Assembly (NCBI RefSeq): GCF_964275005.1
Contig: NC_092694.1
Location: 30,832,359-30,896,358 of the forward strand
From: Diadema setosum
Taxonomy: Eukaryota > Echinodermata > Echinoidea > Diadematoida > Diadematidae
Direction of reading: 5' to 3'
DNA: 64,000 nucleotides
Shown piece by piece: positions 1 through 56,083 of this stretch (the first letter of the stretch is position 1; the number at the start of each line of letters is the position of its first letter). A program made the position numbers and the translations under genes. The notes below the pieces were generated by a model, which was given only the letters and a program-made list of their open reading frames with translations, had not been told where the DNA came from and did not search any database.

Positions 1-2646
1 CAGTTTAATTTTGGAGATACATTTATTGAGTGGATAAAGACATTATATTCTGAACGGAAGTCTCACGTTCTAAACAATGGTTTTTTAACCAATCGTATAT
101 CCATGCAAAGAGGTATTTTCAGGGCTGCCCCATATCTCCATATTTATTTTTGTTTGTTATTGAGGTCATGGCCTTATTAATAAGACAGAATGAGCAGTTG
201 AATGGGATAAAGATAAATAATCATGAAGTGAAGATTTCTTTATTTGCTGACGATTCTGTATGTTTTATAGATGGAACTAGAGATTCTTTTGGTGTATTGT
301 TTGATATTTTGAATTGGTTTGGTAGATATTCTGGATGTAAGATTAATTTAACCAAAACAGAGGCACTTTGGATTGGGTCAAAGAGGGGATGTAAAGATTT
401 TCCTTTGAGAAATCAAGGAATCACATGGAAATCCTCTGACTTTAAATCCTTGGGGGTTAATTTTTCTTTGGATTTGGGTTTGATATTTGATCTTAATTAT
501 AAAGAGAAGTTAAAAAGAATGGCACAGACTATAAACTGCTGGCGGATGAGGAATCTCTCTTTAATTGGTAAAGTATGCGTAATAAAGTCCCTTGTTTTGC
601 CACAGTTAATTTATCTTTTTTCTGTGCTTAGTATAAAAATCCCTCAAATTTTTTTTAATGATTTGAATAGTCTCTTTTTTAAGTTTATTTGGAATGGTGG
701 TAGGGATAGAGTTCAAAGAAAATGTTTGTATAATGACTATATTCAATGTGGTCTTAAAATGATTGATCAATGGGCTTTTGCACTTGCTCAAAAAATGACA
801 TGGATTAAATGTTTGTTAGATGAAAATTATGAGTCTGTCTGGAAATCTATTGAATTATTGGCCCTAGAGAAATTTCATAGAGACCTCAAGATTCTTTGGA
901 AAGCATATGCCCCAGAAACAATTTTGCGATCTTTGCAAAACTCACAAGTGGCTGAGTCATTACGTACTTGGTATATTTATAGAGAATATGCTACTTTAGA
1001 ATCCTATGATTCTAAATTTTCTGAGATTGGGTCTTGTCAAGTGCTGTGGTTTAATAGATTGATTCGTTCAATATCAAAAAAGTATTTCTATTATGAAACT
1101 TGGTACGAAAAAAATGTTTCGGGAATTTCCGACTTGTTGAACCCACCCCTCCCTGGTCATAAATTATTTGAAGAATTGATTTTAGATTTTGATATTCCCC
1201 TTACAGACAGAAGAAAATTCAATTTCTTATTAAGGAATATTCCTAATGGATGGTTGGACGATACTGCATTGAATAGTTTAGATATTTGTGATTCTTTGGT
1301 TATTATTTTGAATGCCCAGAAAAAAGTACCCAGACATGCTTACAAAATATTAAATGTGCTACATGTCCCTGAGAAAAGATATGAATAATGGAAAAGTCAA
1401 ATAACAGTCCCTGATGATATCATTTGGGATAATGTACACAAGATTGATTTTACTTGCACTATTGATACTAGGTTACGCTCTTTTTATTTTAAAGTTTTTC
1501 ACAAATCCATAGCTTTGAATGCTTTTTTTTTTGTATAAAATTAAAAGGAAAGACTCACCAAACTGTACATTTTGTGGGAAAATGGAAGAGACTATGGTTC
1601 ATTTGTTTTGCGATTGTGAGAAGGTTATACCAATTTGGAGATATGTAGTAAACATAATAGAAATCCACATTAATAATTTTAAGCTCTCCAATTTTGAAAA
1701 AATTATTTGGTTTATTATCAGATCAGTTTTTAACATACCTTGTATTAGTTGTAAAATATTACCTTTATATTTGTAAATTTAGGAATGAAGTACCAACTGT
1801 TGATTTTTTTAAGAGTTTTATTAAGCAAAAAGAAACAGTATTATCTAGCTAAGAAAAGAAATAAGCTTACTTTACATTTCAAAAAATGGAGATTTGATTT
1901 ATGATATGTTTGAATGTTACTTTAAAATTGTTTCATACCCCTTGGATTAAGTTTATTTCATATTGTGTATTGGTATGCTGAATACTTGTCATTGTATTTT
2001 GCTCATTGGAATCTCCATGATCTGTCGCTGATACAAAGTACAACCATGTGTAGTACTACATTGTAGTTAGTGAATTTGCCGGCCCTCTGTCTGGCCTTTA
2101 TGTTTTCTCCAGCTTTGTTGGCGCGCCTTGGACATGAACTAATTGCTCAATGGTTTTGGAATTTTTTTGGCTCTAATTTTTTTTTTTTTTTTTTAACAGT
2201 CTGTTATGTAATCTTTTCCTGTCAGGGATTTCCAGGTCTGATTTAGGCTTTATGTAGTGGTTTGAATTACAATGCTAAAGATGTCTCGAGATGAGTTGAG
2301 AATGTGTAGTTTTGAGGGATGATTAGATGAGTAAATTTTGATTGTGTGGGATAAGGTGTGACTTTTGTCGTTGAATAAGAGGGTATGGTCCTCTTTCAGA
2401 CCTGGGGACCCCACTGGGGGAGCCATTCTCCCTGGGTGTGTTATGAGACGGGGGTCTTTGAGGAAGCTTTACCTTACTACTTATTGATGAATCATGGTGG
2501 TTCTCTTTTTATTTTATCTCTGAATTGCTCTTGTCACTTTTTCTTCTTTTTTTTTTCTTTTTCCCGTGTTTGCTGATTGATGATTATTTGTAAATATTGT
2601 GATTTTATGTGATTTCGAAATAAAACATATAAATTAAAAAAAAAAG
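1..2646 (+). mobile_element. LINE, L1/Tx1-like, 3' part of ORF2 and 3' UTR (decayed)
   Basis: This is a non-LTR retrotransposon fragment that continues off the left edge. Reverse-transcriptase palm motifs are visible: QGCPISPYLF at about 118-150 and the catalytic FADD box (SLFADDSVCF) at about 238-267. The segment SGCKINLTKTEALWIG (about 330-380) is typical of the L1/Tx1 group. The main frame runs to the stop at 1386-1388. Coding similarity then continues in other frames to a cysteine-histidine motif (CTFCGKMEETMVHLFCDC, about 1564-1617) followed by PIW, the usual C-terminal knuckle of such elements. A frameshift near 117 separates the first residues from the FADD frame, and another lies near 1530, so the copy is not functional. 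The 3' UTR ends in AATAAA-like sequence and a short A-run at about 2637-2646. The family is clear; the exact clade is an inference. Confidence 0.85.
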
Positions 2647-2794: not shown

Positions 2795-4290
2795 AGTTGG
2801 CACCTTAGGGAGACATATTGGGGGGAAGTGTCTTCATTAGGGAGACAACTGGTCATTAAGGAGACAATTTTTGTGTCTCCATTGCGTAAACTGCCATTGA
2901 ACATGTATATAATAAATTTGCATATAAAACAAATGGAAATGTCTTCCAAATGACCCATCTAGGAGTATATATATATATATAATACATAAGTCTAAACCCC
3001 AAACCCCTTGAAACTGTCTCAAGGGGCGACCAATGTTGTACAGAGGCGGATAAATGTTGGTCTGCTCTGTTAGCTTCTCTCTGTACACTGGTCGGGGGTC
3101 AGGTAATCACATAGACACCAATCATCATCAAATTTCCAAATGTTAGAAAGAGACTAACTATTGCTTCACAACAACAGTGAATATAAAATGCGGGAGAAGG
3201 ATAAAATTTACATGGATAATGTCATTATTCACCGACCTGCCTTCTCGTAGGTCTGAAACAGAGACTTAAACAGAAACAAATTTCTTTTCTTGCTACACAA
3301 TGGAACACATCACTCATCACTTAACTCTTCTACACCTTTTGGAGACCATTACTTCTTTAACACTTCTTAAGGGAAGGGGAGGGGTTTTGTTAGTAGGGAT
3401 AAATAATGTTAGTGGGTGTGGCCACTTATCTCGACATCTCGACGACGAATGAGGTCCTCGTCTGCATGTCATTGTCGATCTCGTCAGCGGGGCTGGGGCG
3501 TCCATTGAGCGGTCTGCTTTCACTGGTTCATTTAACAATTCATCACCATCATTGTCCACTTCGTGTCAGTCTGACAGGGCGCTTCAACATCTCCGATGAT
3601 ACCAGTTGACTATTTGGAGTTCGTTACACCCCAGATTGGTGTAAACCAAAGTCCTGTACTCTCTCGTGATGCGCAGTTTCTCATTCTCCTGTCGTTGTTT
3701 ATCGGTTTATAACTAATTAACTCTTCGGCAGTCCAACCACGATCCTCTTCACATTCACAGCGTCGATAGAGTTTAGTTGATTAATATGGGGGGGGGGGGC
3801 ATGATGTACAAGGAAGGGGATCTCCTGACTCTATCTCTGTGGTGTCCAACTATTCAAAGTTCTTCAAAGTTCCGAAATACTCTGCAGCCTTTGCTTCGCT
3901 ACACAGTGTGAAGCCGCTCCCATCGTGCTTGCAATTCTCCAACTCTCACTCCTCTCTCTATTTACTCAAACTTGGTCTTTTATAACAAATTTTCTATTGG
4001 TATTCTTTCCCTAAAAGTATTTCATTGGCTAACTCTTATTTTGGGGTGTGTTGTTCACTGGAATAGATTAATTTCCCTTTGGTCAGATGTTGGGAGAGGA
4101 GAATTGACAAAAAAAAGGAAATCTAGCTGGAAGCAAAATAAAGGGTTTCATATACTCCAAGAAGGGGAAAAGACTGATTCATATTGACGTCACAAGGTGA
4201 CTTGGAAAACGACTGCAATGTTCTGTTTTCTTTAACTTTCTATCCTATTCTTTTCTATTCTAAATTATATGTTCTAGTAGCCATCTGGGC
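2647..4290. other. Gene-free repeat-rich stretch
   Basis: I see no supportable gene here. It contains an (AT)n run at about 2743-2790, a shorter TA run at about 2966-2980 and a G-run of 12 at 3788-3799. The GC-richer piece at about 3310-3610 has open frames on both strands, but I could not match either to a known protein. Confidence 0.5.
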
Positions 4291-4321
<31 letters not shown>

Positions 4322-4336
4322 GTATATGTGTGTGTG

Positions 4337-4373
<37 letters not shown>
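4291..4373. repeat. (TA)n(TG)n microsatellite
   Basis: A TA run passes into a long TG run. It directly abuts the left end of the CACGGATTGTCGCC array. Confidence 0.95.
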
Positions 4374-4374
<1 letters not shown>

Positions 4375-4625
4375 GCGACACGGATTGTCGCCCCTACACG
4401 GATTGTCGCCCCTACACGGATTGTCGCCCCTACACGGATTGTCGCCTCCTGCTCGGGGCGACAATCCGTGACGGGCGCTGGCGGCACGGATTGTCGCCCT
4501 CGTCACGGATTGTCGCCTAGCGACAATCCGTGCAGTTCCCAGTTTTTGACCTCGAAGGCGACAATCCGTGTTGGCAAAAAATTTGTTGCGACACGGACTG
4601 TCGCCCCGTCACGGATTGTCGCCCC
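4375..4625 (+). repeat. Array of CACGGATTGTCGCC units, copy 1
   Basis: The 14-mer CACGGATTGTCGCC, or a one-base variant, occurs eight times forward (starting near 4379, 4397, 4415, 4433, 4485, 4504, 4592 and 4609). It occurs three times as the reverse complement (near 4457, 4519 and 4558). The first four units are spaced exactly 18 bp apart; later ones are irregular and can pair as hairpins. A TG microsatellite precedes it and another follows at 4693-4722. A related array in the opposite orientation lies at 6575-6724. Open reading frames through it are by-products of the unit length. Confidence 0.9.
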
Positions 4626-4688
4626 GGGCTCGGGGTGATTCCTCCGGTGTTAAGCTTTGGTGGGATGGGTATGACTGGTAAGTTATGC

Positions 4689-4692
<4 letters not shown>

Positions 4693-4726
<34 letters not shown>

Positions 4727-4730
4727 GTGT
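4693..4730. repeat. (GT)n microsatellite
   Basis: A long GT run lies 70 bp after the CACGGATTGTCGCC array and is followed by more diffuse TG-rich sequence to about 4850. Confidence 0.9.
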
Positions 4731-5161
4731 TTGGAGTATAATAATACAATATGTAGAAACTGTGCATGTGTGGTGGTTGTATAGTGGTAGTGGTTTGTTT
4801 GTCTGTGTGTATACGTGTGCCTGTATGCTTACGTGTGTATGTGGAATATAGTGGCGCTACTGTGGCAATACAAACGCCTTCAGAGTGTATGAGCACGTGT
4901 TTAAAGAATTCACACCAGCGTTGATCTAAAAATAGTGTGGGTGTGTCAACCAATACCAGCGGTGAGGCGGGCTAGGCGAGAGAGAGACCGAGAAAAAATA
5001 CATACGAGGGAGGTACCCTCCCCAAATGTTATTTGTCTTTGTTCATTTTTCACTGCAGTCATTTTCTTCCATCAGTCTTATAAAGAACGTCCATACCACT
5101 ATTCTTTGTCCCAGAATAGGTTTGGCATGCTTTATGCATGACCGAATAATTTCCACACGCC

Positions 5162-6412: not shown

Positions 6413-6574
6413 CACTAAATTATCATGTGCACGCGCACATACACACTTCCTTGAAACCTCACCATGACTTTTTACATGGCATGTTTGCATGGATGTAGCC
6501 ATGTAAGTTATGTGTTAGTATTTCAATGATTATGTCCAGAACGATATTACCCAGCAAAATGTGCTTCGAGGGCG

Positions 6575-6724
6575 GGCGACAATCCGTGCCGCCAGCCCTC
6601 GTCACGGATTGTCGCCAGGCGACAATCCGTGACGGGGGCGACAATCCGTGCCGCCAACGCCCGTCACGGATTGTCGCCCCGAGCAGGAGGCGACAATCCG
6701 TGTAGGGGCGACAATCCGTGTCGC
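6575..6724 (-). repeat. Array of CACGGATTGTCGCC units, copy 2 (inverted)
   Basis: This array matches copy 1 (4375-4625) in reverse complement. It has five units as GGCGACAATCCGTG (near 6575, 6618, 6637, 6689 and 6707) and two as CACGGATTGTCGCC (near 6603 and 6664). Linkers such as the CTCCTGCTCGG and GGCGGCACGG segments are also shared, so the two arrays are copies of one element and not chance repeats. It too abuts a TG run (6727-6742). Confidence 0.9.
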
Positions 6725-7494
6725 AACATGTGTGTGTGTGTGTCAATTGCAATCACAAGTACTTAACTGCATAATTATTTTAAAAGATGATTGGGAACAT
6801 AAGACTCATACCCATAGATAGAATACAGAATTAGGTTCTTCCTCTTCTTTTTTGTTCCTGCACTAAGCTAAAAGCACTGGAAAGCACACTGTATACTTGC
6901 GTAAAACACCCCAAAACAACAACAGCAAACAAACAAACAAAAACTCACTATGATCCATTTTTACAGGGCAGAAAAAGAACTGTAAAAAGCATAGGAGACA
7001 GGAAGAAATACGGTACCACCACTGTAATTGGACGAATTGTATGTTTTTGTATAATCTTTACATTTTTGAGCGTATAAGGATATCATCACTTTGTCTTTAC
7101 TATTTTATTATAAGCACTGTCAATCATTATTATTATTATCATTGACTGGTGTGGTGCTATAATCTCATCAGGAATTTCACCCACGTATTGCAGGAGTAGT
7201 ATTAAATGCTGACCTACAATAAAAACTCATTTAACTGCAGACAAGCTTAAGACTCTATCTTAATCATCATGATCGCATTGTCATAGGGTTTTATTTTTGT
7301 CATTAACTATTGTGAATTCAGCGACAAATTCACAAATGCAAATTTCGCCCACGGATTAGGCCTACTTTAGACTTGGGATGTCCCTTTAATGCCACCATGG
7401 TCTCGGCGGAATCCGATCGAACATAAGAAAAGTTATCGAGTCTGTCAAGAACCTGTGTCAAGACTGACAAATTGGTGCAGATGATTGGGGCAGT

Positions 7495-8935: not shown

Positions 8936-9480
8936 ATCCGGACTTAATTCGTATATTACAAAAGCTCATTATGTCTGCTCTTAATGCCTTCTAGTGAAAC
9001 TCTCGTTACGGGCCTGATAGGCCTATCAGGCGAGCTGCTATTGTTCCATCCATCATACTTCCTTCTTTCTCTAATTGCGCAGACTGTTACTTTCAGCGTT
9101 ATTGTGTTCACTAAATATTTCCTATTATTCAATGATTAATTGAGGTTGGCCAAACTCTCAGAGTGGATGGACGCCTAGCTGCAGTGAACATCACATTTGT
9201 GTAGACAACAGTAACATCGTCTTCACGTATAGTTATCTGAATGGAATATGGACATGCGGTTTAATTGTCATTATTAATCCTGTGCATCTTGCACCAAGCC
9301 ACTGCATCCAGCGGTAAGCTTTCTGTACCTTCTTGCATACGATTGCTTCACTCGCAGCAGTGCAGGTAATATTTGTTGTAGGACAGTCAACGCAGAAGTC
9401 TCTGCATCTGTAGTAAAAGAGCCACTACTCTACTACTCTGACGAGAAACGCGTCGCCACATCAGGAGGAGGAAGTCCGCG

Positions 9481-10882
9481 ATGCAAGGTAATAGGCGTAA
9501 AAGTTACCTTCCTTTTAACTTTGCCGTAAATTTTCAGTTTTGATAAATGCCATGTGATGTAATATATTAAAGTCACAGACAGACAGACAGACTCACACAC
9601 ACACACACACACACACATACGCACACACAAGCAACCCGTTAGAAGTTAGATTTTAGATAGAATTAACGCTGAGATGAATTACAGTTTCGGCTGCAGGATG
9701 TTAAATGTATTTTCACTTCGATTGGAGTTAAGAAAAGATAGTGACAGACTAAGCTGAAATTAATGTACTGGGATGTTTCAGTTGAAATCAATTTCAAATC
9801 ACGAAATAATGACGAAATATTACTTTCAATTTGAATTATAGTTATGGTCTTTTTTTAAGTTTAGATGGGAAGCAGTGTATTTGTTACTCTAACTTATTCC
9901 GTAGTGTATTGAAGTGACAAAACTTTGAGATCTATTTGGGTTTTTAAATAAACCGACCTCGATATTCTTGTGATAACAATTAAGCAGCATGATACCGAGA
10001 TATTTCCATATCAAGCGTCTTTTGATATGATGTAAAGTAGTTAACGGAAACTTTTTTTTTTGCATACAAATTGATAAAAGACAAGTTCACATTTATAAAC
10101 ACGTGAATTTAGTGAATGCAGTAATATTATTAGAATATATCGGTGAAAGCTTGAGGAAAATCAGACAATCCGTTCAAAAGTTATGAATTTTTGAAGTTTC
10201 TGCGCAGTCACTGCTGCTGTATGCATGAAAAGACTGCCGTAACTACGAAAGCATATGACGTCACTGCGCAGAAACTTTAAAAATGCTTAACTTTTGAACG
10301 GATTGTCCGATTTCTCTCAAACTGTCACAAAAATGTTTTACTGATATTGCTGCATTCTCTCAATTCACATTATTATGAATAAGTAGTTGTCCTTTAAATA
10401 ATACAAAAAAAAATCATCAATATTCAGGTTGTCCTGGTTGCCCGGTTACCATCGCTGTGGTGAGCATCATATTCTTGATAGTCCTCGTTACCATGGTTGC
10501 ATTTTGCCTGTTTCACCGATGTCAAAAGGGGTGAGTGTCTTTTATAGGCTGCACCTAATCAGTTTCGCGGGGGGGGGGGGGGGGGGCGGGGGAGGGGGGA
10601 GTTAAAAGTCAAGTTGCTATTACACTAAATATCAACGTCACATTCATATATAGTACATGGATTTTCCCCCCTTTTCATAGGGATAAAAGCGTTTGCAAAT
10701 TTATTGTTCATTGAAATCGCATTTAAAGGACGCTTTAACTCTCTCAGTCTTATCGGCAACATTGTGTTGTTGATAATGGTGATGTGCAATGGTCAATAGC
10801 ATGTTAAATAATTTTAATAGATCAAACCCACATATTTCATTCAATACTTCTAGACTGAAAGCAGAAATGAATATATTCTATG

Positions 10883-10950
<68 letters not shown>

Positions 10951-11440
10951 TGTAGCTTATGCATGACAAGGATCCAGCTAGCTTCATTCATCCATTTCAA
11001 AGAGCAGGGTGCTCAGCCTGATGAAGTGGTCTCTCACCCTAATGTGTGTCAGGGTATATTGTGTCTTTGTGCGTCTCTGGAGCTGACTCCATAGACACAC
11101 AGTCCCTTGACCACACAAGAGAGATAGCATATGCTACAGATCATGAGTCTGCACATGGTACACACATCACTGTTTTGATGCAGTTCAAACGTCACGCAAT
11201 CCAACTACTTAGTGTAGGCCCGAATCCTGATGAAGGCCATGATATAGGCCGAAAGATTGACAAAAAATAGAATTAGAGAGCAATAATTACGTCAGCTTCA
11301 AACTTCAAACTACACAGACACATATCGTGCGATGAAGGGCATGTATATACCAAATACAGGCTCAGTGTTTCTTCTCCATAATGCCATATACAACGAGAAG
11401 TCGGAAGAACTCCTTCCGGCTCCTTCCGACTTCTCATTGC

Positions 11441-11511
<71 letters not shown>

Positions 11512-14500
11512 GGCCCTATATATGTATGTTTATATAGATATATTTGATTTATTTGATTTGATTTATTCATTCATCTGCAATTTTTTTATCAACATAATCA
11601 AACATAATATATACAAAATTAAATATGAAATTCATTATAACTAGTTTCTACAATTTCAACAATTTTGATTACAAAAACATTTGTGACACAATCACAGCTG
11701 TGTTATGAATTACATACAGAACGGTCGCCAATAATAAGCTATAAGCTTGACCCTTTGGCAACCGATGATACAATACGTTAATGCAATAAGAGAAGGGGGT
11801 CCAACATGATGCTCGTGGATAAGGGGGATAATAGGAGAGACAGAAAGAGCAAGAAAGAGAGGATGATAGAAACCTTCCGATACCAGGCTTGCCAGATCAA
11901 ACTCACAATAAATACATACAAAATGTCATGTACGTGATTATAGATTACAGTAATGTATTCACATTTCACACGCAAATAGACATGATACAGTGTATCGAAT
12001 AAAGGTTAGGCCCTACATTGACTTAAGAATAGAATGGAAGAGAAATAAGAGCAACTACGAAATATACACAGTTCAGCGCCCTACCAGGGCGTATAGATGA
12101 GTATAACTTGCCCGACATAACGAGAATAATAGACAGCACAGACAAAGACGTATGGGAGGAGCGCAGAATGGGCACAGGCAGGTGCTCCCGTATATGTGGA
12201 GAGTCTCAAGAACAAACATGTATAAAAGCCAGAGATAAAGAATGAATAGAGAGGGTTTCTGCAAAGAACATCACTGGTCGTGCTGGTACTGTGTGATCAA
12301 CATGTTCTTAACTGCTTTTTTTGAATGAATATATGGACTTGATGTTACGTAATTCAGGGGGTAATTTATTCCAAATATCTGGGCCGGCGTGTCTTGCGGA
12401 TTTGTGGGTTAAGAGTGTTTTGGGGTTACATAAGTGCACGTTTGTTGCTTGCCTTGTTGGATACGAATGAACTTCTGCATTTGAATTAAACATATTTTCG
12501 AACGAACACGGTAATGAATTAGTATTGAAGCGGAACATGAAAAGTGCGTTTTGCAGAATATGAATATCTTTTACCTTTAAAGTCTTAAATCTAGCCGATT
12601 ATTATTGTCACACGAATTATTTCTTCTTTGAAAACAGACTCCTTAAGGTTGCTGACTTGTTTTTATACAACTTAGGCACATTTATGTTTCAGTTATCAGC
12701 AAACGGCTTGCCTGACGTATTTACTCATATGTTTCAGAAAAACTATATCGTCCATGCTTACCCCACAAGACAAAGAGAATCACTTCACCTTCCACGTACT
12801 CGCACACTCCTTGCTCAAAAAACAATTGTTTTTACCGGACCTAAATTCTGGAATGATCTTCCCGCCGATTTAATCAATTGTTCTAGTATGTTTACATTTA
12901 AACAAAAATTGAAATTAATGTTAATAAATGAATATAATCAGTCTGTAATTATTACACCGGTATTTTTTCATGGAACCTGCGTTTACAAGCTTTGCTTTTG
13001 CGGTTCCATCATATTTCACAAGTTATAGAGAATAGTCTTATGTACATTGTGTATGCTGACACACTTTTTTCTGTTCATGTCCCGACGTAATGACATATTT
13101 TGTATCTTACTTGGTTTGTATTCTTTTTTTGGATGTATTTTGATGTCAAGTGAAATATGAAAATAAACGTGCTGGAACTGTTCACTGTGTCTCGAGTGCA
13201 AGACCAGTGCAGTTTCAGTTATTCAATTCAATTAAAAGAGAAAAAGAGGGGATCTGTGTGATCATAATAACCAGCATTTGCACATATACGAATAGCTTTC
13301 TTTTGCAATTTGAATATGGTATCACTGGCATACATCGAATTTGCCCATATGATATTACAATAAGAAATGTACGGTAAAACCAGTGTGTTATAAAGCATGA
13401 TTAAGATATCCAAAGGCAAATAGTGTTTTTAGTTTGCATGATATTCCAACATTTCGAGCAATGGGAGATGTGATATATTTCACATGGTCTTTCCAACTCA
13501 GATTTTCATTAATTATAATCCCAAGGAATTTAGTAGATGATTTCTTCTCAAGCGAAATACCATTTATTTTCAAATAACATTCAAAATCACTATCAATATT
13601 TTTCCTCGGATGTTTGAAATTCGTTTTAGGTAAATTCAAAGATAAAACATTACTTTTAAACCACTGAGACAATTTGGATAATTCAACATTAATGATCTAA
13701 CAAGACACCGAAAATCCGAGTTGGAGAGAAATACATTTGTATCACCAGTAAAAATGATGGATTGTAATATATTCGAAGCATTGGGTAAATCATTGATATA
13801 AAATAAAAACAACAATGGCCCTAATATTGACCCTTGCGCTACGCCGCATTCAATCAACACTGTTTCAGAATTACAGGCGTCAAAACATGTGTATTGCTTT
13901 CTATCGCATAAATAACTTGCGAACAGCTTGAGAGCAGTTCCTCTTATACCGTAATAATATAACTTTGACTATAAAATGGAACGGTCAAGAGTATCAAATG
14001 CTTTGCTCAAGTCCATGAAAACACCTACAACATGCTTTTGGTCAGCTAAAGCATTTGATACTCTATCATATAATTGAGCTAGTGCCAAATCAGTTGAATG
14101 TGATTTCCTGAATCCATACTGATCAGGATGCAGAATATTGTGTTTGGTCAAGAAATTTTCTAAACTATTGTATATGATTCTTTCCAATATTTCAGAAATA
14201 CTAGGTAACAAAGAAATGGGTTGGTATTACTAATACATGAAAAATCATCTTTTTTATACACAGGAATAATTTTTGCGATCTTGAGTGGGGTGGGGAATAT
14301 TCCGGATAATAAAGAGAGATTGAAGATATGAGAGAGAGGCGTAATAATCAATTCAATAATGTGCTTCAAAAAACAGTGATAATTTCGTCGTAACCAGCAG
14401 AATGTGATGATTTCAAAGTTAATGTTATATCTATAATTTCTTTCTGATCAGTATATATTATCTATATAACCATAACAATAAATCTGATATCCCTAGATCC

Positions 14501-14980
14501 GAGAAGTATGTCCAAGGAAAGATTGCCACAATCAAGCGGGGCGATGAACTTGCGGACACTGGTGACGTGTACGAAACTGTCGCACAAACCGACACGCCTG
14601 ACGTCAAGACTTGTTCGAATACGTCTGGGTATGAGGAGGTATCGAAGACTGCACAAAACCATGACAACGAGGATGAATCAGCCACTGAACAACCTCCAGA
14701 CCAGAATCTGGGAGAAGAGCTAGCGAAGGGAGACACACCTCCGGTGGACAATTTGTTCGATGATAAGTATTATGACGTTCTTCATATCGATTCTGAGATC
14801 GGAAAAGATAGTCATCGTGTTAAAGGAGAGCCACGTCACAATGGTAATAACGATTCGTCGGGTGCTGATACAAGTGACTATTATTCACTGGTGATTCCTG
14901 CCAATGGTGGGCTGGAAAACAATGCTACAAACCAGCATGAACCAGTGTGTAGCAGTGATGTGTACGGAGAACCAGCTTGA
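9481..14980 (+). CDS. Putative single-pass transmembrane adaptor/receptor tail with tyrosine motifs (3 exons, 197 aa)
   Basis: I do not recognise a named orthologue. Model exons: 9481-9487, 10428-10530 and 14497-14980. Splice phases agree (GTAATA donor, CAG acceptor; GTGAGT donor, TAG acceptor). The product begins MQGCPGCP, followed by a membrane segment at about residues 9-31, a juxtamembrane HRCQKG with a cysteine that could be palmitoylated, and an acidic 160-residue tail. Tyrosine sites in the tail are VYETV (Y62), SGYEEV (Y82), YYDVL (Y129), SDYYSL (Y165) and VYGEP (Y193). Y82 and Y165 fit the ITIM pattern (S-x-Y-x-x-V/L). The minimal outer part resembles LAT/PAG-type adaptors, which recruit SH2 proteins beneath the plasma membrane. 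An in-frame stop at 9439 precedes the chosen ATG, which has G at -3. Alternatively, the phase-1 membrane exon joins an ectodomain exon I did not find. The tail exon is strong; the 7-nt coding first exon is the weak point. Confidence 0.6.
10071..10397. mobile_element. Palindromic TTAA element, family B copy 1
   Basis: The two halves are inverted copies of each other: CAATCCGTTCAAAAGTTATGA near 10166 and its complement CTTTTGAACGGATTGTCCGA near 10291. The right end is CCTTTAA; the left is AAAGACAAGTTCAC. It matches 57708-58288 and 59223-59850. It ends 30 bp before the transmembrane exon at 10428. Confidence 0.8.
10569..10598. repeat. Poly(G) tract
   Basis: A run of about 18 G followed by further G-rich sequence, shortly after the transmembrane exon. 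Confidence 0.9.
10887..10947. repeat. (TA)n microsatellite
   Basis: About 60 bp of pure TA. Confidence 0.95.
11443..11515. repeat. (ACAG)n(CA)n(TA)n compound microsatellite
   Basis: ACAG units pass into a CA run and a short TA run. Just before them, CTCCTTCCGGCTCCTTCCGACTT forms short direct repeats. Confidence 0.9.
11540..14455 (-). mobile_element. CR1/Jockey-group LINE, 5'-truncated, interrupted by a second LINE
   Basis: On the minus strand the reverse transcriptase reads in order. IIPVYKKDD is near 14255, then LPSISEILERIIYNSL (14211 down) and HPDQYGFRKSHSTDLA with VFMDLSKAFDTLD (palm A, to 13969). After these come GVAQGSILGPLLF (about 13845), the palm C region and KFLGIIINENLSWKDHV. The C-terminal segment continues at 12538-12308 (HSYPTRQATNVHL ... 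GPDIWNKLPPELR). The palm C box reads FTGD in place of FADD, and frames are broken in several places, so it is dead. A tail of AAATC/ATGAATGA-like units ends near 11540. The element lies in the second intron of the adaptor-like gene. Its 5' end is about 40 bp from the exon 3 acceptor. An unrelated piece in the opposite orientation fills about 12545-13220. Confidence 0.8.
12590..13220 (+). mobile_element. CR1-group LINE 3' end, nested inside the minus-strand LINE
   Basis: A forward open frame encodes the typical C-terminal tail of CR1-type LINEs: ADLFLYNLGTFMFQL, then HAYPTRQRESLHLPRTRTLL, GPKFWNDLPADL and FKQKLKLML, with the stop at 13026-13028. A 3' UTR with AATAAA near 13160 follows. It aligns in style to the interrupted host element's own tail (YPTRQ ... 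GPDIWNKLP) but differs in sequence, so it is a different subfamily. Its insertion separates the host LINE's coding parts at 13228 and 12538. Boundaries are good to about 40 bp. Confidence 0.75.
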
Positions 14981-15712
14981 CTCTTCAATTACCATTATAA
15001 TTGTGATTTTCATTCTGCGAAGATTTCTCCACATTTCACATCATACGTTAAGAACTCCTTGAATATCATAATCATAATTATCCCCTTCTGCAAATTCTAA
15101 TAAGCAGACAAAGAGAAGGCTCACACTACAATAACTTTTTGGAACTGGAGGTTAATGATGTAGCCACCCTCGCTAATGCAAATATAGTGTTCTTATTTTC
15201 TCACGAGCAGCTTACACATTTTTTCCATTTCTTTCATCCTGAAAAACGAGATAACCGGCGTTATCACAATATCAGAAATACTGTTAGTCGTCAATATCCT
15301 AACACAAAAAAGAAATGTCGTTGATTTGGAACTCATTATTATCAAATGGTCTTGAGGTACACGCTAAAAGGAAATTGGTTGAGCTTTGCACATTAACATT
15401 TCCGTTTAAGCATTTCCATAAGCATTTTCATATGCTCTGAAGAATTAAGGTCTATTTTCAAAGCGCTTTGAATGTCTTTGTATGTATGTAATGTATGACT
15501 ATTTGCTCTATTTAATTGCTTCACAGTTTGGTGGTTTTTATGTCGTACTTTGACTATACATTGGTGAACTTGTCATATGGCATGGGATTCATTGGGTTTA
15601 TTTCTGTTTACCAATGCACTCTACTTTTTTCATCTAATCACATATTCTGTTTGTACGTATTGTACATATTGTATGTATTATCCATTTCTTTTGTTTCTAT
15701 AATGACGGAAGT

Positions 15713-50200: not shown

Positions 50201-53200
50201 GACTCTTTTCTTTCTTTTTTTTTCCGTAAAAGAAAATATATTTGCAGCTAAACATTCAAGGCAGCTTGCTAACATAAGAGCAAGCAGAATTATGTCAGTG
50301 GGTGATATCCAGCTTTGCGTATCCCTCTGTTTGGATTTGATGGATTAAACTTTGCGGTCACTTGGACCTTCCCAAACTGCAAACTGGTCGATTCCATAAA
50401 CTTGACTCCAGCACACAGTTGCCTGGGATTTCTCCACCTTCTCAGCTGATCACTATATTCCACCAAAGTTATGTCCCTTCATCTATACATAGATTATGAA
50501 GATCGTAGGCCTTGACCATTGATTTTGAGAACTGATCTTTAACTATCAGTGATCTTTGACCCCTGGCAACCCCAAGATTTAATATATCGCATAAGACAAC
50601 CTTCAGTGCAGAGCCTAGACAATTTAAGTTGATGCTAAATGTACTTCCAAGCTGACCAATCAGGGGATTGTCCTTGACCATTGTGATCAAGGATTTGACC
50701 GTAAAATGCTCTGGTGCGGGGACATCGTACTTACCCATTCTCTTCTTGCGGTTTGCGTCTTTCCGCCTGTTGGCAAACCAATTGTACACCTTGCTGGGAT
50801 TTACTCTGTTGTGCTCTGCGATGTCTTGTCCTGCATTGAAAAAAAAAAAAAAAGTGGAGAAAAATATAGGGTCATTCACATGTGAACACCAACTTTATAC
50901 ATAAAATCATGGGATGACAGAAAGTGTCTCCAGTGGTGAACCCATAGTCCATCCCATACTTATGGTGTCTGTGATAAGCACACTGGCAAGTGGAAAAAAA
51001 AAAACATTTGAGTGAAAATGCAACCCATGATTGAGATTGAGATCAAGGTCTAGTCGTCTGGATGTAACATAAACAGTAAAATCAAGCAAACAGAATGGGG
51101 GAAAATTTCACTAAAGTCAGTCAGAATATTTAAAAGTTTTGAAAGATAACCTGCATTCACAGAACTGAGTAATCAGTTTCAGTTTCAGACACATAAAGAG
51201 ATCACATTGTGATCTCATAAGTCTCTCATTTACTTCCATACAAAATTTTAGGTTTAGTGTTCGTTTGCTTTGATAATATCCACCATATCAATTTAATTGT
51301 CAGTAATGCAGCATTGCTGTATTGACAATCTGTAAAGGGGAAGGGGTCACGGTTGCAGAATAAACCAACAAAAACTTCAAACTATATTTCTTTGTCTTTG
51401 AACCAAATAGAGAGTTGTAAGACAACAGCACTATCACAGTGTTTAATTTCAAGACATGATTGTGACTGCCAAGAGTGTTTCACAAGTACAGGAAAAACTT
51501 CAAATTTCCCTCACTCTCATTTGATTTAAAAAAAAACAACAAAGCACCTGTAAACTCCTACTGTTCCGTTTATTAGATTATCAATAACTATCATTGTCAA
51601 CTTGAATGTGGGTTTGACTTTTTGCTTCGGGGAACTATAGCACTGCGTTCTACCAGGGCATAAGTGTAGCTCACCCGGGATCTGCTGCATGGCGTTACAG
51701 GTGTCGGAGAGGCGTACCCGCTCCAGGTCGTTGGGGTAGGGGTTCTTCTTGAAGTACGCCTCCAGCACCTTCAGACAGTTGTCCTTCCAGACGAAGCGCT
51801 CCCGCCTCTTCCCCGACACCACCTGGGTGTTGGCAGTCTGCGAGGGCGACTGGTAGGGCAGGTAGCGGGCAGTCGACCGCCGGTGGTGCTGGGAGATGAT
51901 GTGTTGCTGGGGAGATGGCTGCCCATCTTGGTCCTGGAGACTATTCAGCAATCCTGAACAGACAGCAATATTTACATTAATCAGTCTGTTGTTCTTCTTT
52001 TGTTCTGTATGCATGAGTGCCAACCTTGCATGAGTCAGCATTATTGAAGTATTCTGAGGACTGAAGAGGCATTATACATGTATTTGGTGGAAAGTAGTAT
52101 GTTTATTTTTCCTGCAATACATCAGTCATACGCAGAAATACAATTTGGGAACAATAGTAACTTCCATGAAACCTGAAGTATTTTTTGGCAAGAAACAGTA
52201 CAAAATATTGCCAAAAAGAGAGAGGTATATTTGGCATCTCTGTACATACACTGTAATGTGACACGTATTTCATGTACTGTGAAGGCATGGCAAGAGGAAG
52301 GAAACATATATAGCATTAACCTGATGCGGACGGACTGGTTTTGCCATAACACACATTTCCCATGGATACCTGCCCAAGTATTCTTGGGACTTGTCTCCAA
52401 CAGACTATTTAAAGAAAGAAAGAATTATTAGGGAGTGCTGTACCTAGTGCCTCCAGCTCTTTCCGTTTGGCCAGATACCAGCGGTAGAGCATGGCCTGGG
52501 TGCTGCGCCTCATCACGTAGCCGTGGAGCAGAAACTGGGAGATGTAGCTCTGGCTGATACCTGTCGCCTGGGCGATCTGGTTCTGGGAGAGACGATTCAG
52601 GTTCAGGAATTCCTTGATGTCCTCCTTCACATTCATGTGCCCTTTCCTGGGTGAAGAAGGAATGACTTATGCAAATTAAAGGGATGGTATAGTATCGGTC
52701 AAAATGAGGATTCAGCCTTTAACTTTTTGCAGGATGCTCACACACTACTTTATGAAATTCTATAAGGAATTCTAAGTTCATTCGATTAAAGCTGGTCTTT
52801 AAATGGCTGAGATATCCAAAAACACAGTACAACAAAGTGATCCTGATAAAAGGTGGGTGGTCCCACCTTTTATAAGGATTAATTTGTTTTAGATATCTCA
52901 GCCATTTCAAAACCAATTTTCATCAAATGAACTTTTAAAATTCCACTCATAATCATTATGTTATTTCATATTTTGTAAAAGGTTTCTTATAATCTCAAAT
53001 ATCATTTTTAAAAGATGGAAACCAGTAGCCCCATCTCAACCGAAACTGTACTACCCCTTTAAGTATAGTTGTAATTGAAGACCAAAAGTCAGCATGGAGG
53101 CACACAGTCGTCATACAGCCAAGCACAAGTTAACAGGAGACTGGTACTGCATGGATTAAAGTGAACAATTTAGAATTGTCTGTTGAGTTTGTACATTAAT

Positions 53201-55720
53201 CATAAGACGGATACATACACACAAATGAAGTCTCTGACATGGTATGCCTCAGCACACGAGAACTAGAATAAAAAGAAAAATAAATAAAACATAACCTGAC
53301 CTATTCATAACAAAACAATCACAAGGTTAAGACTAGAGATAATCTGTCACCTGAAGAAAAAAAAACGGAATAAAGTCTGAAAGGTTAAGTTTGCTTCAGT
53401 TCCAGGTGCGAGGAAAGCTTGTGACATTTTGGATGCTATAATGATGCAACATTTTTCTGATAAAGATAGATTTGAATAGTAATTCTATGTCCCCTCATAT
53501 CTGTCTCTGCCTCTTTATTACCTTTGTGTTGTCTTTGTTGGTTTAATGTTACTAAACAGAATTGATGTTCAAGTCATTATTGTGGGCCTATCCCTTTGTA
53601 ATTTAAGCATAATTTATCATTTGCAGATGAAACAAAACCCAGCATTAGTGCTTCAAAATAGTTCTAAAATGTGAATTAGGGATAGAAACAACCAAATTTG
53701 AAAAATGTAATCAGTATAATCAATGTAAAGTATTGCCAAATGTACAAAATGTGAACAATAGTTATGATAAAAAATGTTTGCGGACTACATGTAAACCATC
53801 TACAGTTATGGTTTATTGAGAAAAGTAGTGATATTTCCTTTTATTTTAGGCTTTATTGCAAAAATTTTATATGGTAGGATGTTTTGTGATACCACTGACC
53901 TACACATTTGCATCAAATGTGATATCTTGAATATTTTTCAAATCACTGCTTCCAAAGGTAAACAGGACCTTTAAGTGTTTGTTCCTTCAAAGAGCTAAGA
54001 AGAAAAGACAAGAATTATGAGACATTATATCACCCCAAGGCTGTTATCCCAGTTAGAATAGCACACTGAATATTGATGGTCTGCTAAACCTATACCTTAA
54101 AATACAATTGCAATGTGTACACCTGTACAATGCACATAACTACATTTATTATGAGTAGTCTTGAAGTACTCTATAATCTTATCTATATTTTGATGAACAC
54201 CATACAAGTTAACTTTTCATAATGCTTTAATTTGTATGTCAACAATGTAAGCAAAATATGAAACTGAAATTCAAACTGAAACTAGTCAATTTTGAAATCC
54301 AGGGAATCTTTGTAATCACGATAAACATAGAGCCTATCATCTCCAGGGTACAATTATTCTTATACATTGTAGCTGTGAGACCCAGTGCATTTGTTCCCAC
54401 ACACTGTGGATTAACTTGTAAACATGTATGGCAAGCAAAGAACAGGTTCATGCACACTGTAAGCATTCTGCATAGTTGGTACTTGGTAGTGCTTGATTTA
54501 CAGTACCCTTACAATGTATAACAAATTTGATAATCTCATAAATAGTAGGCCCTACTGTATAACTTGTTATTTTTGTGGGGGTTTAATTTTTGTGAATTTC
54601 GCAAATCACAGTTGGACCGTGAATTTGTAAAACAAGATGCAGAAATTGCAACTGATTGACAAATTGCCCTACATCGACGTAAATAAGCACTGAATTGATC
54701 AGTGTTTTTTAGTAGTAGCCATGATAAAAAATCATGGGCGTACATACTCGAGCAGGATTCGAACCTACGACCTCCTGATCACCGGACAGGCGTCATCTCC
54801 ACTAGACCACCGAGCTTTCGCCCGACAGCAAGTGTTGGTTCTAATCCTTATAGCATGCAGCGGGTACTGCTTTGTTATTCAAATTCATGAATTTCTTCCG
54901 TCGAGATGTTTACATCTCGACGGAAGAAATTCATGAATTTGAATAAGATGCAGAAATGTCACCATTGCGCTAAGGTACAATGGTGTAAGAGTGTGCTTAT
55001 GAAGGCCTTGTGTCAATTCACGAAAACAACATCTCGCAAAAATGTCTGTGACCTCATTCGCAAAAATATCTCTACATGAAAAAATCAGCCTCTGCAGTAA
55101 TTCTTTTTTCTGGTGATATTAAGCAAGAATCAGATGCACTTTTAAACTCTATTTGAACATAATCCTTGAACTTCATATGATTGTACATGAGGATGAAGCA
55201 TCAACCCTTGTGAAAGAAAAGTGCAGAAGAGAATGCACAAACAAAATATTGTTGTCATCACTTCCAAACTTTCTTTCATGGTCTACTGAAGATTCAAAGA
55301 GTGGTAACTGTCTCACCGGAAGAGTGCTTCCACTTCCTCATTGGACACGCTGATTTCATCCATCCCTAGGCGACCGTCTCCATTCTCCTGGTAGGTATGG
55401 CTACCCATGGAGGAGAGCAGCGTTACCAGGGAGGTCCTGCCGCCGGGCGATCCTTCCTCCTGGCCCAGCCCGCTGCCATCCAGGGCGGAGTTCCTGTTGG
55501 TCACCGTCAGCTGCTGCTGGGCCTGGTAGCTGCTGATTGGCGGTGAGGCGGCCGATGTCACAATGGGCTGTTCCACTCGGGGTGGGAGGGGTCCCAGCTC
55601 CGTGTCCAGCTTGGCCATGGTGTCGCACGCATGGATGATTTCATCTTTGGTCAGCCCTGTGCGCACCAATCTCCTCAGGAGTTCTATTTGCTCAATGGTG
55701 TAGCGAGGCTCACCCGCCAT
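47250..55720 (-). CDS. HMBOX1: Homeobox-containing protein 1 (HMBOX1/HOT1-like), 6 coding exons, 427 aa
   Basis: A nuclear DNA-binding protein; vertebrate HMBOX1 (HOT1) acts as a transcription factor and binds telomeric double-stranded repeats. Coding exons in order: 55720-55317, 52646-52444, 51953-51675, 50830-50735, 49369-49256 and 47437-47250. All splice sites are GT-AG and phases agree (2,1,1,1,1). The N-terminal HNF1-like motif is MAGEPRYTIEQIELLRRL, followed by TGLTKDEIIHA (residues about 1-32). The POU-specific-like domain (about 139-200) has NVKEDIKEFLNLNRLSQ, TGISQSYISQFL and LYRWY. The homeodomain (about 252-327) begins RRERFVWKDNCLKVLEAYF and ends KVYNWFANRRK. An extended loop between its helices is split by intron 3 after IPG. 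The acidic C terminus ends with VNNSIMTLMKA and IKTEAD, as in human (420 aa, recalled). The start ATG has an ideal context (GCGCCATGG). HNF1 itself is excluded by the YTIEQI and C-terminal matches. Confidence 0.95.
48117..48182 (+). repeat. tRNA-like relic in HMBOX1 intron 5
   Basis: AATGGTCTAGTGGATTGC followed by CCAGGGTTCAAAATCCGTC has the spacing of pol III A and B boxes. The fold is imperfect and there is no acceptor-stem match, so it is more likely a SINE head or tRNA pseudogene than a working tRNA. Confidence 0.45.
48748..49177 (+). repeat. Interspersed repeat, family F copy 2
   Basis: Starts with a C-run passing into an A-run (about 48749-48792). It then matches 28108-28512 from ATGCAATCGGATTTTTGCATTG to TTTTTAAAGTTATCTCTGC. 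Lies in HMBOX1 intron 5, about 80 bp downstream of exon 5 as transcribed. Confidence 0.85.
52676..53062. mobile_element. Palindromic TTAA element C (387 bp)
   Basis: Left end TTAAAGGGATGGTATAGTATCGGT and right end ACCGAAACTGTACTACCCCTTTAA are inverted. The inner arms share GGCTGAGATATC with GATATCTCAGCC, and the centre AAAGGTGGGTGGTCCCACCTTTTAT folds back. It ends 29 bp before the HMBOX1 exon 2 acceptor (minus strand). Confidence 0.85.
54679..54921 (-). mobile_element. tRNA-derived SINE inserted in family G repeat
   Basis: On the minus strand the head reads AAGCTCGGTGGTCTAGTGG (A-box region), then CGCCTGTCC, and GTCGTAGGTTCGAATCCTGC (B box), covering about 54825-54745. Near-identical words flank it (ACATCGAC left, ACATCTCGAC right), suggesting a target duplication. 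Its left-edge body is short and AT-rich. Confidence 0.6.
54877..54944. repeat. 68-nt near-perfect hairpin
   Basis: Arms 54877-54909 and 54912-54944 are exact inverted copies of 33 nt (ATTCAAATTCATGAATTTC at the outside, CGAGATGT at the inside) around a TT loop. It spans the right junction of the SINE insertion. Confidence 0.95.
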
Positions 55721-56083
55721 GGCGCCGTTTGCGATGCCTTTCAAAATGGCCTTCCTCCAGATAGTTCTTCCAGATTACCCAATATCAGTCTGCATAAGCA
55801 GTAAAAAGAAAAGCAGAGCCCCTGACACCACTCAAAATGAAAGACACATTGTAATCAAAACTTTTTTCTGAATTGATGGTTATTACAACTGGTCATTTTT
55901 CAGTGGAATGTAGTAAATACAGTTCACACCACAAACTCATTTTATACAGTACATTTTTCAGTAGATGTACATAAAATTTATTTTGAATTTTAATTCCTAG
56001 CCTTTGCAATTCTGTTTTCTTTGGTTTCATTCTTTTTGTATAATAATGAGTTTCCCTTTACAGCAGTTCAACCATTAATGTCT

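Follow-up and report, generated by a model that had tools for sequence, protein, structure and literature searches.

A probably non-functional, ectodomain-less copy in a tandem receptor family of Diadema setosum

We analysed a stretch of 64,000 nucleotides of the Diadema setosum genome (912.7 Mb), hereafter the window, which lies on contig NC_092694.1 (here C10) at C10:30832359-30896358. Three exons near its left end had been proposed to encode a transmembrane adaptor of the LAT/PAG type. We consider it probable that these exons are instead the 3′-most copy of a tandem receptor family, which has lost its ectodomain and is a relic, probably non-functional. By sequence comparison, homology to the relatives covers a 5′/signal-peptide block, the tip of a stalk exon, the membrane exon, the tail and the region downstream of it. 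An internal deletion would have removed the ectodomain exons and brought intron 1 up against the stalk exon, and the open frame of the tail would be one that has not yet decayed. After such a fusion this copy would be unable to make a receptor, and for this reason it is probably a relic. The suspected invertebrate adaptor thus gives way to a receptor-gene truncation that can be traced.

Three-exon model and its features

The preliminary description had the three exons splicing in consistent phase to 197 residues, and we confirmed this: 9481-9487, 10428-10530 and 14497-14980 give 197 codons and a stop, with GT/AG borders at the splices. In the relatives we find equivalents of both the membrane-exon donor and the tail acceptor. 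One membrane segment, a juxtamembrane cysteine, an acidic tail, tyrosine sites and two sites with the pattern of an immunoreceptor tyrosine-based inhibition motif (ITIM) are all present as described. The most hydrophobic 19-residue stretch is at residues 13-31 (mean 3.1), the single juxtamembrane cysteine lies in the membrane exon (HRCQKG), and the tail of 160 residues contains 34 acidic residues, 12 Lys/Arg and 8 tyrosines. The tail is presumably disordered. The features of the locus are as follows (window positions).

9024..9429, plus strand: block common to the relatives, with 5′ sequence, signal-peptide exon and start of intron 1 (blastn in C10:30.64-30.90 Mb and alignment)
9248..9313, plus strand: broken signal-peptide exon (frame reading and alignment to relatives)
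9430..9441, plus strand: fusion zone, intron-1 sequence against stalk-exon sequence (left homology stops at 9429 in four relatives; right homology starts at 9436-9441)
9442..9487, plus strand: leftover 3′ tip of the Ser/Thr-rich stalk exon, ending ATGCAAG/GTAATA (blastn and multiple alignment)
10053..10413, no strand assigned: inverted-repeat element, like a miniature inverted-repeat transposable element (MITE), directly 5′ of the membrane exon (reverse self-match 73%; more copies in the region)
10428..10530, plus strand: membrane exon with phase-1 start, reading GCPGCPV, membrane segment, HRCQKG (68% identity to the membrane exon at C10:30716255)
12308..14447, no strand assigned: probable reverse-transcriptase fragments of a long interspersed nuclear element (LINE) inside the last intron (open reading frames, other frames by eye; an RVT_1 match at 13636-13968, E 0.0018, is below cut-off)
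14497..14980, plus strand: tyrosine-rich cytoplasmic tail exon including the stop codon (best 11 relatives 47-56% identical in the genome search; alignment A2)
14981..15397, plus strand: post-stop region with homology to relatives, 3′ untranslated region by position (blastn alignments including the tail)

Remnant of the receptor gene upstream of the membrane exon

The block at 9024..9429 had eight blastn matches on the plus strand and one on the minus strand, with 61-74% identity. Of its ATGs, the one at 9248 does not share the phase of the donor and reaches a TAA at 9275, and the in-phase one at 9241 reaches a TAA at 9262; open signal peptides are retained in relatives c, e, h and i. Between 9436-9441 and 9571, the window aligns with the relatives' sequence from the 3′ end of the stalk exon into the next intron, ATGCAAG/GTA included. 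Through blastn, the stalk tip (9442-9487) matched genes k (74%), g (72%), a (71% and 65%, two copies) and b (66%) with E values from 2e-10 to 1e-5, and gene c groups with these homologues in the multiple alignment only. Compared with a, b and c, the window tip has 4 extra bases, which shift its upstream frame against the ATG. We infer that the fusion zone is the trace of an internal deletion of the ectodomain exons.

What had been taken for the first exon (ATGCAAG, 9481-9487) is the last seven bases of the stalk-tip homology and comes from the 3′ end of an ancestral stalk exon. Judged from the alignment, the ATG at 9481 is homologous to an internal Met codon of the stalk, and 9487/10428 is the junction of the family. 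Such a short first exon is also expected by chance, since the 2 kb upstream hold 17 possible phase-1 first exons of the form ATG..N/GT (shuffle mean 28.6), seven of them with a GTRA donor (mean 4.7).

A duplicate, j, was found at C10:30794309-30794824, with 96% identity to window 9107-9627 and 94% over the fusion. Both the out-of-phase signal peptide and the fusion of the window recur in it, so the fusion is no misassembly at a single site. The two features are most likely older than the duplication. On the other side of the gene, the tail and downstream region showed 71-72% identity to C10:30783876-30784749 and C10:30815832-30816641 in blastn.

The tandem receptor family

The anatomy of the relatives was read in the 200 kb upstream of the window. 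Their exon order is signal peptide (ending in phase 1), several ectodomain exons, Ser/Thr-rich stalk, phase-1 membrane exon and tail, and from this sequence they are probably single-pass type I receptors. An ectodomain exon with the motif CDFESSxCGM..GCW is listed after the signal-peptide exon, exon 3 was found in 10 gene copies, and an exon with ISFIAV......IRIDDI is listed between exon 3 and the stalk exon. Nine ectodomains were aligned (A1; rows e, i and k without exon 2, row h without exon 5) and share 16 invariant columns; a possible exon between exons 3 and 5 (near C10:30781045, gene c) is uncertain and was omitted.

Pfam scans of five assembled relative models gave no MAM match over cut-off, and a PDB sequence search gave no match for the relatives' ectodomain. 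Through hhalign, the ectodomain profile aligned colinearly with two MAM sequences (MDGA1 and enteropeptidase) over 93 columns (P 0.00015, probability 51%), and 15 column shuffles of this comparison gave P values of 0.05-0.82. We call this ectodomain MAM-like, not MAM. It appears to resemble the second half of the domain of MAM proteins such as receptor phosphatases mu and kappa, neuropilins, MDGA1 and enteropeptidase, but it is shortened and divergent, and the tail has no phosphatase domain in Pfam scans. In a genome scan for MAM, none of the 150 candidates scored and listed, out of 598, was located at C10:30.1-30.9 Mb. The intact relatives would most likely be ligand-binding receptors, with a divergent MAM-like head on a Ser/Thr-rich stalk.

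Searching the genome with the 197-residue product, we found 45 matches, six of them to membrane exons (L016, L021 and four rows that carry no locus). With these set aside, the remaining 39 collapse into 23 tail loci, a lower bound since only the best candidates were scored; 20 are at C10:30.13-30.85 Mb, two near 10.25 Mb and one at 4.10 Mb. Exon 3 is found upstream by 2,968-15,007 bases in 22 of the 23 tail loci, with no other tail in between (a check covering all but the one minus-strand locus). It is absent for the window locus, from which the nearest exon 3 is 34.7 kb off, beyond the tail of another gene. All 29 genome matches of exon 3 are on C10 and none is in the window.

By subtraction, seven of the 29 exon 3 copies are not paired with any tail locus in the match lists (C10:30110705, 30149476, 30351539, 30387866, 30491871, 30684520 and 30770690), so partial copies are common in the cluster. 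These seven are possibly secreted forms or relics.

Exons 2, 3, 5 and the stalk were also used as tblastn queries, and each had 8-13 matches at E<=0.01 within 256 kb. For the window and the gap from C10:30816700 only noise was seen among the matches listed (best E 0.041, six residues, opposite strand). These searches, with exon 3 against the genome and with exons 2, 3 and 5 in tblastn, found no such exon in the window, and the idea of an ectodomain hidden inside it was rejected. A complete receptor with nearby ectodomain exons too divergent for recognition would agree with the phase-1 start of the membrane exon. It is highly improbable, since the same searches recover the relatives' exons many times per query, the signal-peptide and membrane exons are only 1.1 kb apart (part of this being the inverted-repeat element), and the stalk tip abuts intron-1 sequence. 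The preliminary description had allowed for the end of a fast-evolving receptor with ectodomain exons elsewhere; descent from a receptor family stands, but the ectodomain exons appear to be deleted in this copy.

The membrane and tail exons of the window might also serve as an alternative 3′ end of gene e (C10:30797242-30816313), whose stalk exon would be spliced to them, so that one ectodomain has two tails. The phase-1 junction is the same across the family. Gene e precedes the window exons on their strand and is still open in its signal-peptide exon, exons 3 and 5, membrane exon and tail; no stalk exon was found for it. However, gene e has an open tail of its own, and the roughly 26 kb in between contain frames that look by eye like reverse transcriptase; we consider such splicing quite improbable.

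Reading of the matches showed that the tails are open to the query end in 11 of the 23 loci (in one from residue 104 on only), and 12 have a stop, a frame break or an early end. Alignment A2 has nine rows, of which the other eight are 49-55% identical to the window tail. L008 (with a stop) and the broken tails are left out of A2 and of the set of eight tails used below for substitution rates, and L009 and L011 were omitted from both as near copies of L006 and L010.

Two relatives have long tails made of repeated tyrosine-motif units: an open frame of 592 residues at C10:30596372-30598147 (L024, L023, L007) and one of 1289 residues at C10:30635266-30639132 (L025, L030, L026, L004). Both frames are delimited by stop codons at either end, and some intron sequence may therefore be included on the 5′ side. 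They contain 21 and 45 tyrosines, 10 and 17 YxxPhi sites, and 1 and 9 YxN sites, respectively. Judging from these motifs and general signalling biology, Src-family kinases may phosphorylate the YxxPhi and YxN tyrosines and SH2 proteins would then be recruited. This large and fast-evolving receptor cluster with tyrosine-rich repeated tails is a more interesting object than the window copy, which serves as a pointer to an expanded cluster whose tails vary in the number of phosphotyrosine-motif repeats. Among the papers listed in literature searches, none describes such a family in its title or abstract opening, which is weak evidence of absence.

Constraint on the window tail

The ratio of nonsynonymous to synonymous substitution rates (dN/dS) between the window tail and seven relatives was 0.72-1.21 by NG86 and 0.96-2.19 by YN00 (no YN00 estimate for three of the 28 pairs of the set); the set holds only open tails and is thus biased towards constraint. 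In neutral simulation the frame stayed open in 49% of runs at 20 substitutions, 14% at 63 and 3% at 130, where 63 is the estimate from pairwise distances. The open frame is modest evidence of constraint, because 14% of neutral runs stay open. In A2, L004-L007 and L010 have a YQN tyrosine that the window, L002 and L003 lack. On balance, dN/dS, the simulation and the absence of YQN tend to favour weak or no constraint.

Several points weigh against a relic. The dN/dS among the relatives is also high (NG86 0.51-1.08, YN00 0.75-1.59), so a high ratio alone is no marker of a relic. The window frame is open across all 160 codons, against 12 of 23 tail loci broken or short, its six YxxPhi sites are well over chance (shuffle mean 1.12; none of 5000 shuffles of the same tail reached six), and the 5′ block is kept. 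All frames opened by the ATGs at 9241, 9248 and 9254 are short and stop before 9481, so re-initiation at 9481 is possible.

These points could suit a working adaptor derived from the receptor, which would start at the former stalk Met at 9481, have about 8 residues outside and a phosphotyrosine tail, and function as LAT/PAG do. Its junction 9487/10428 is ancestral and of correct phase, and the basic residues C-terminal of the membrane segment are consistent with the C-terminus inside. We nevertheless regard this adaptor as unlikely, given the dN/dS values, the missing YQN tyrosine, the rarity of the juxtamembrane Cys among the relatives (see below) and the presence of short reading frames upstream. 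With little confidence, we further speculate that ectodomain loss in this lineage-specific receptor family made a free-standing phosphotyrosine adaptor which competes with or modulates its parents, so that the LAT/PAG architecture was invented independently, and that the parents' tandem tyrosine-motif tails (up to the 1289-residue frame) are signalling platforms tuned by copy number. If the truncated copy is expressed, it would give a direct view of an adaptor arising from a receptor.

Comparison with known adaptors and immune receptors

Adaptors of the LAT/PAG type have a natively very short extracellular part without signal peptide, and a juxtamembrane palmitoylation CxxC. With the vertebrate adaptors LAT, PAG/Cbp and SIT, the window product as first read shares the short outside part, one membrane segment and the acidic multi-tyrosine tail, with several predicted docking sites (8 Tyr, 6 YxxPhi). 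It differs in its descent from a receptor that had a signal peptide and an ectodomain, and in having one juxtamembrane Cys and no CxxC. This Cys occurs in one of the seven membrane exons caught by a pattern search. The outside part is short because sequence homologous to the longer receptor is missing. For a LAT/PAG relative by sequence, Pfam matches stayed below cut-off (SIT 14.8 of 27.6 bits, RHEX 16.6 of 27), and this candidate was rejected; a PDB search with the window protein gave no match. Given the relatives' signal peptides and ectodomains, the origin of the ATG, the rare Cys and these Pfam scores, the earlier proposal of an adaptor like LAT/PAG whose N-terminus is natively short is not supported.

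The family shares tandem, fast-evolving, partly broken copies and YxxPhi sites in the tail with immune receptors bearing ITIMs or activation motifs (ITAMs), such as FcR-like and CEACAM proteins. Unlike these, neither the two long frames nor the window tail has ITAM spacing (a YxxL/I pair 6-12 residues apart). The two YxxL/I sites of the window tail are 36 residues apart and show no clear excess over shuffles (P 0.106). Two ITIM-pattern sites, as pattern matches only, occur in each of the long frames and in the window tail, where they are modestly above chance (shuffle mean 0.24, P 0.023). No Ig domain was over cut-off in the relative models scanned with Pfam.

Other features near the locus

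An open frame of 1308 residues at C10:30732548-30736471 on the minus strand (L040), by eye a retrotransposon of gag-pol type, lies near broken family members. Minisatellite-like dispersed repeats were found at window 4255-4971 and 6459-6752 and also at C10:30767150-30767832, with RGDNPCRGDNP or GRQSVTG recurring in their translations. At window 54-1388, RVT_1 is over cut-off in a LINE-like element that apparently starts upstream of the window. A homeodomain (51526-52071) and an HNF-1 N-terminal domain (55313-55774) on the minus strand at window 50469-55774 probably belong to one HMBOX1-like gene.

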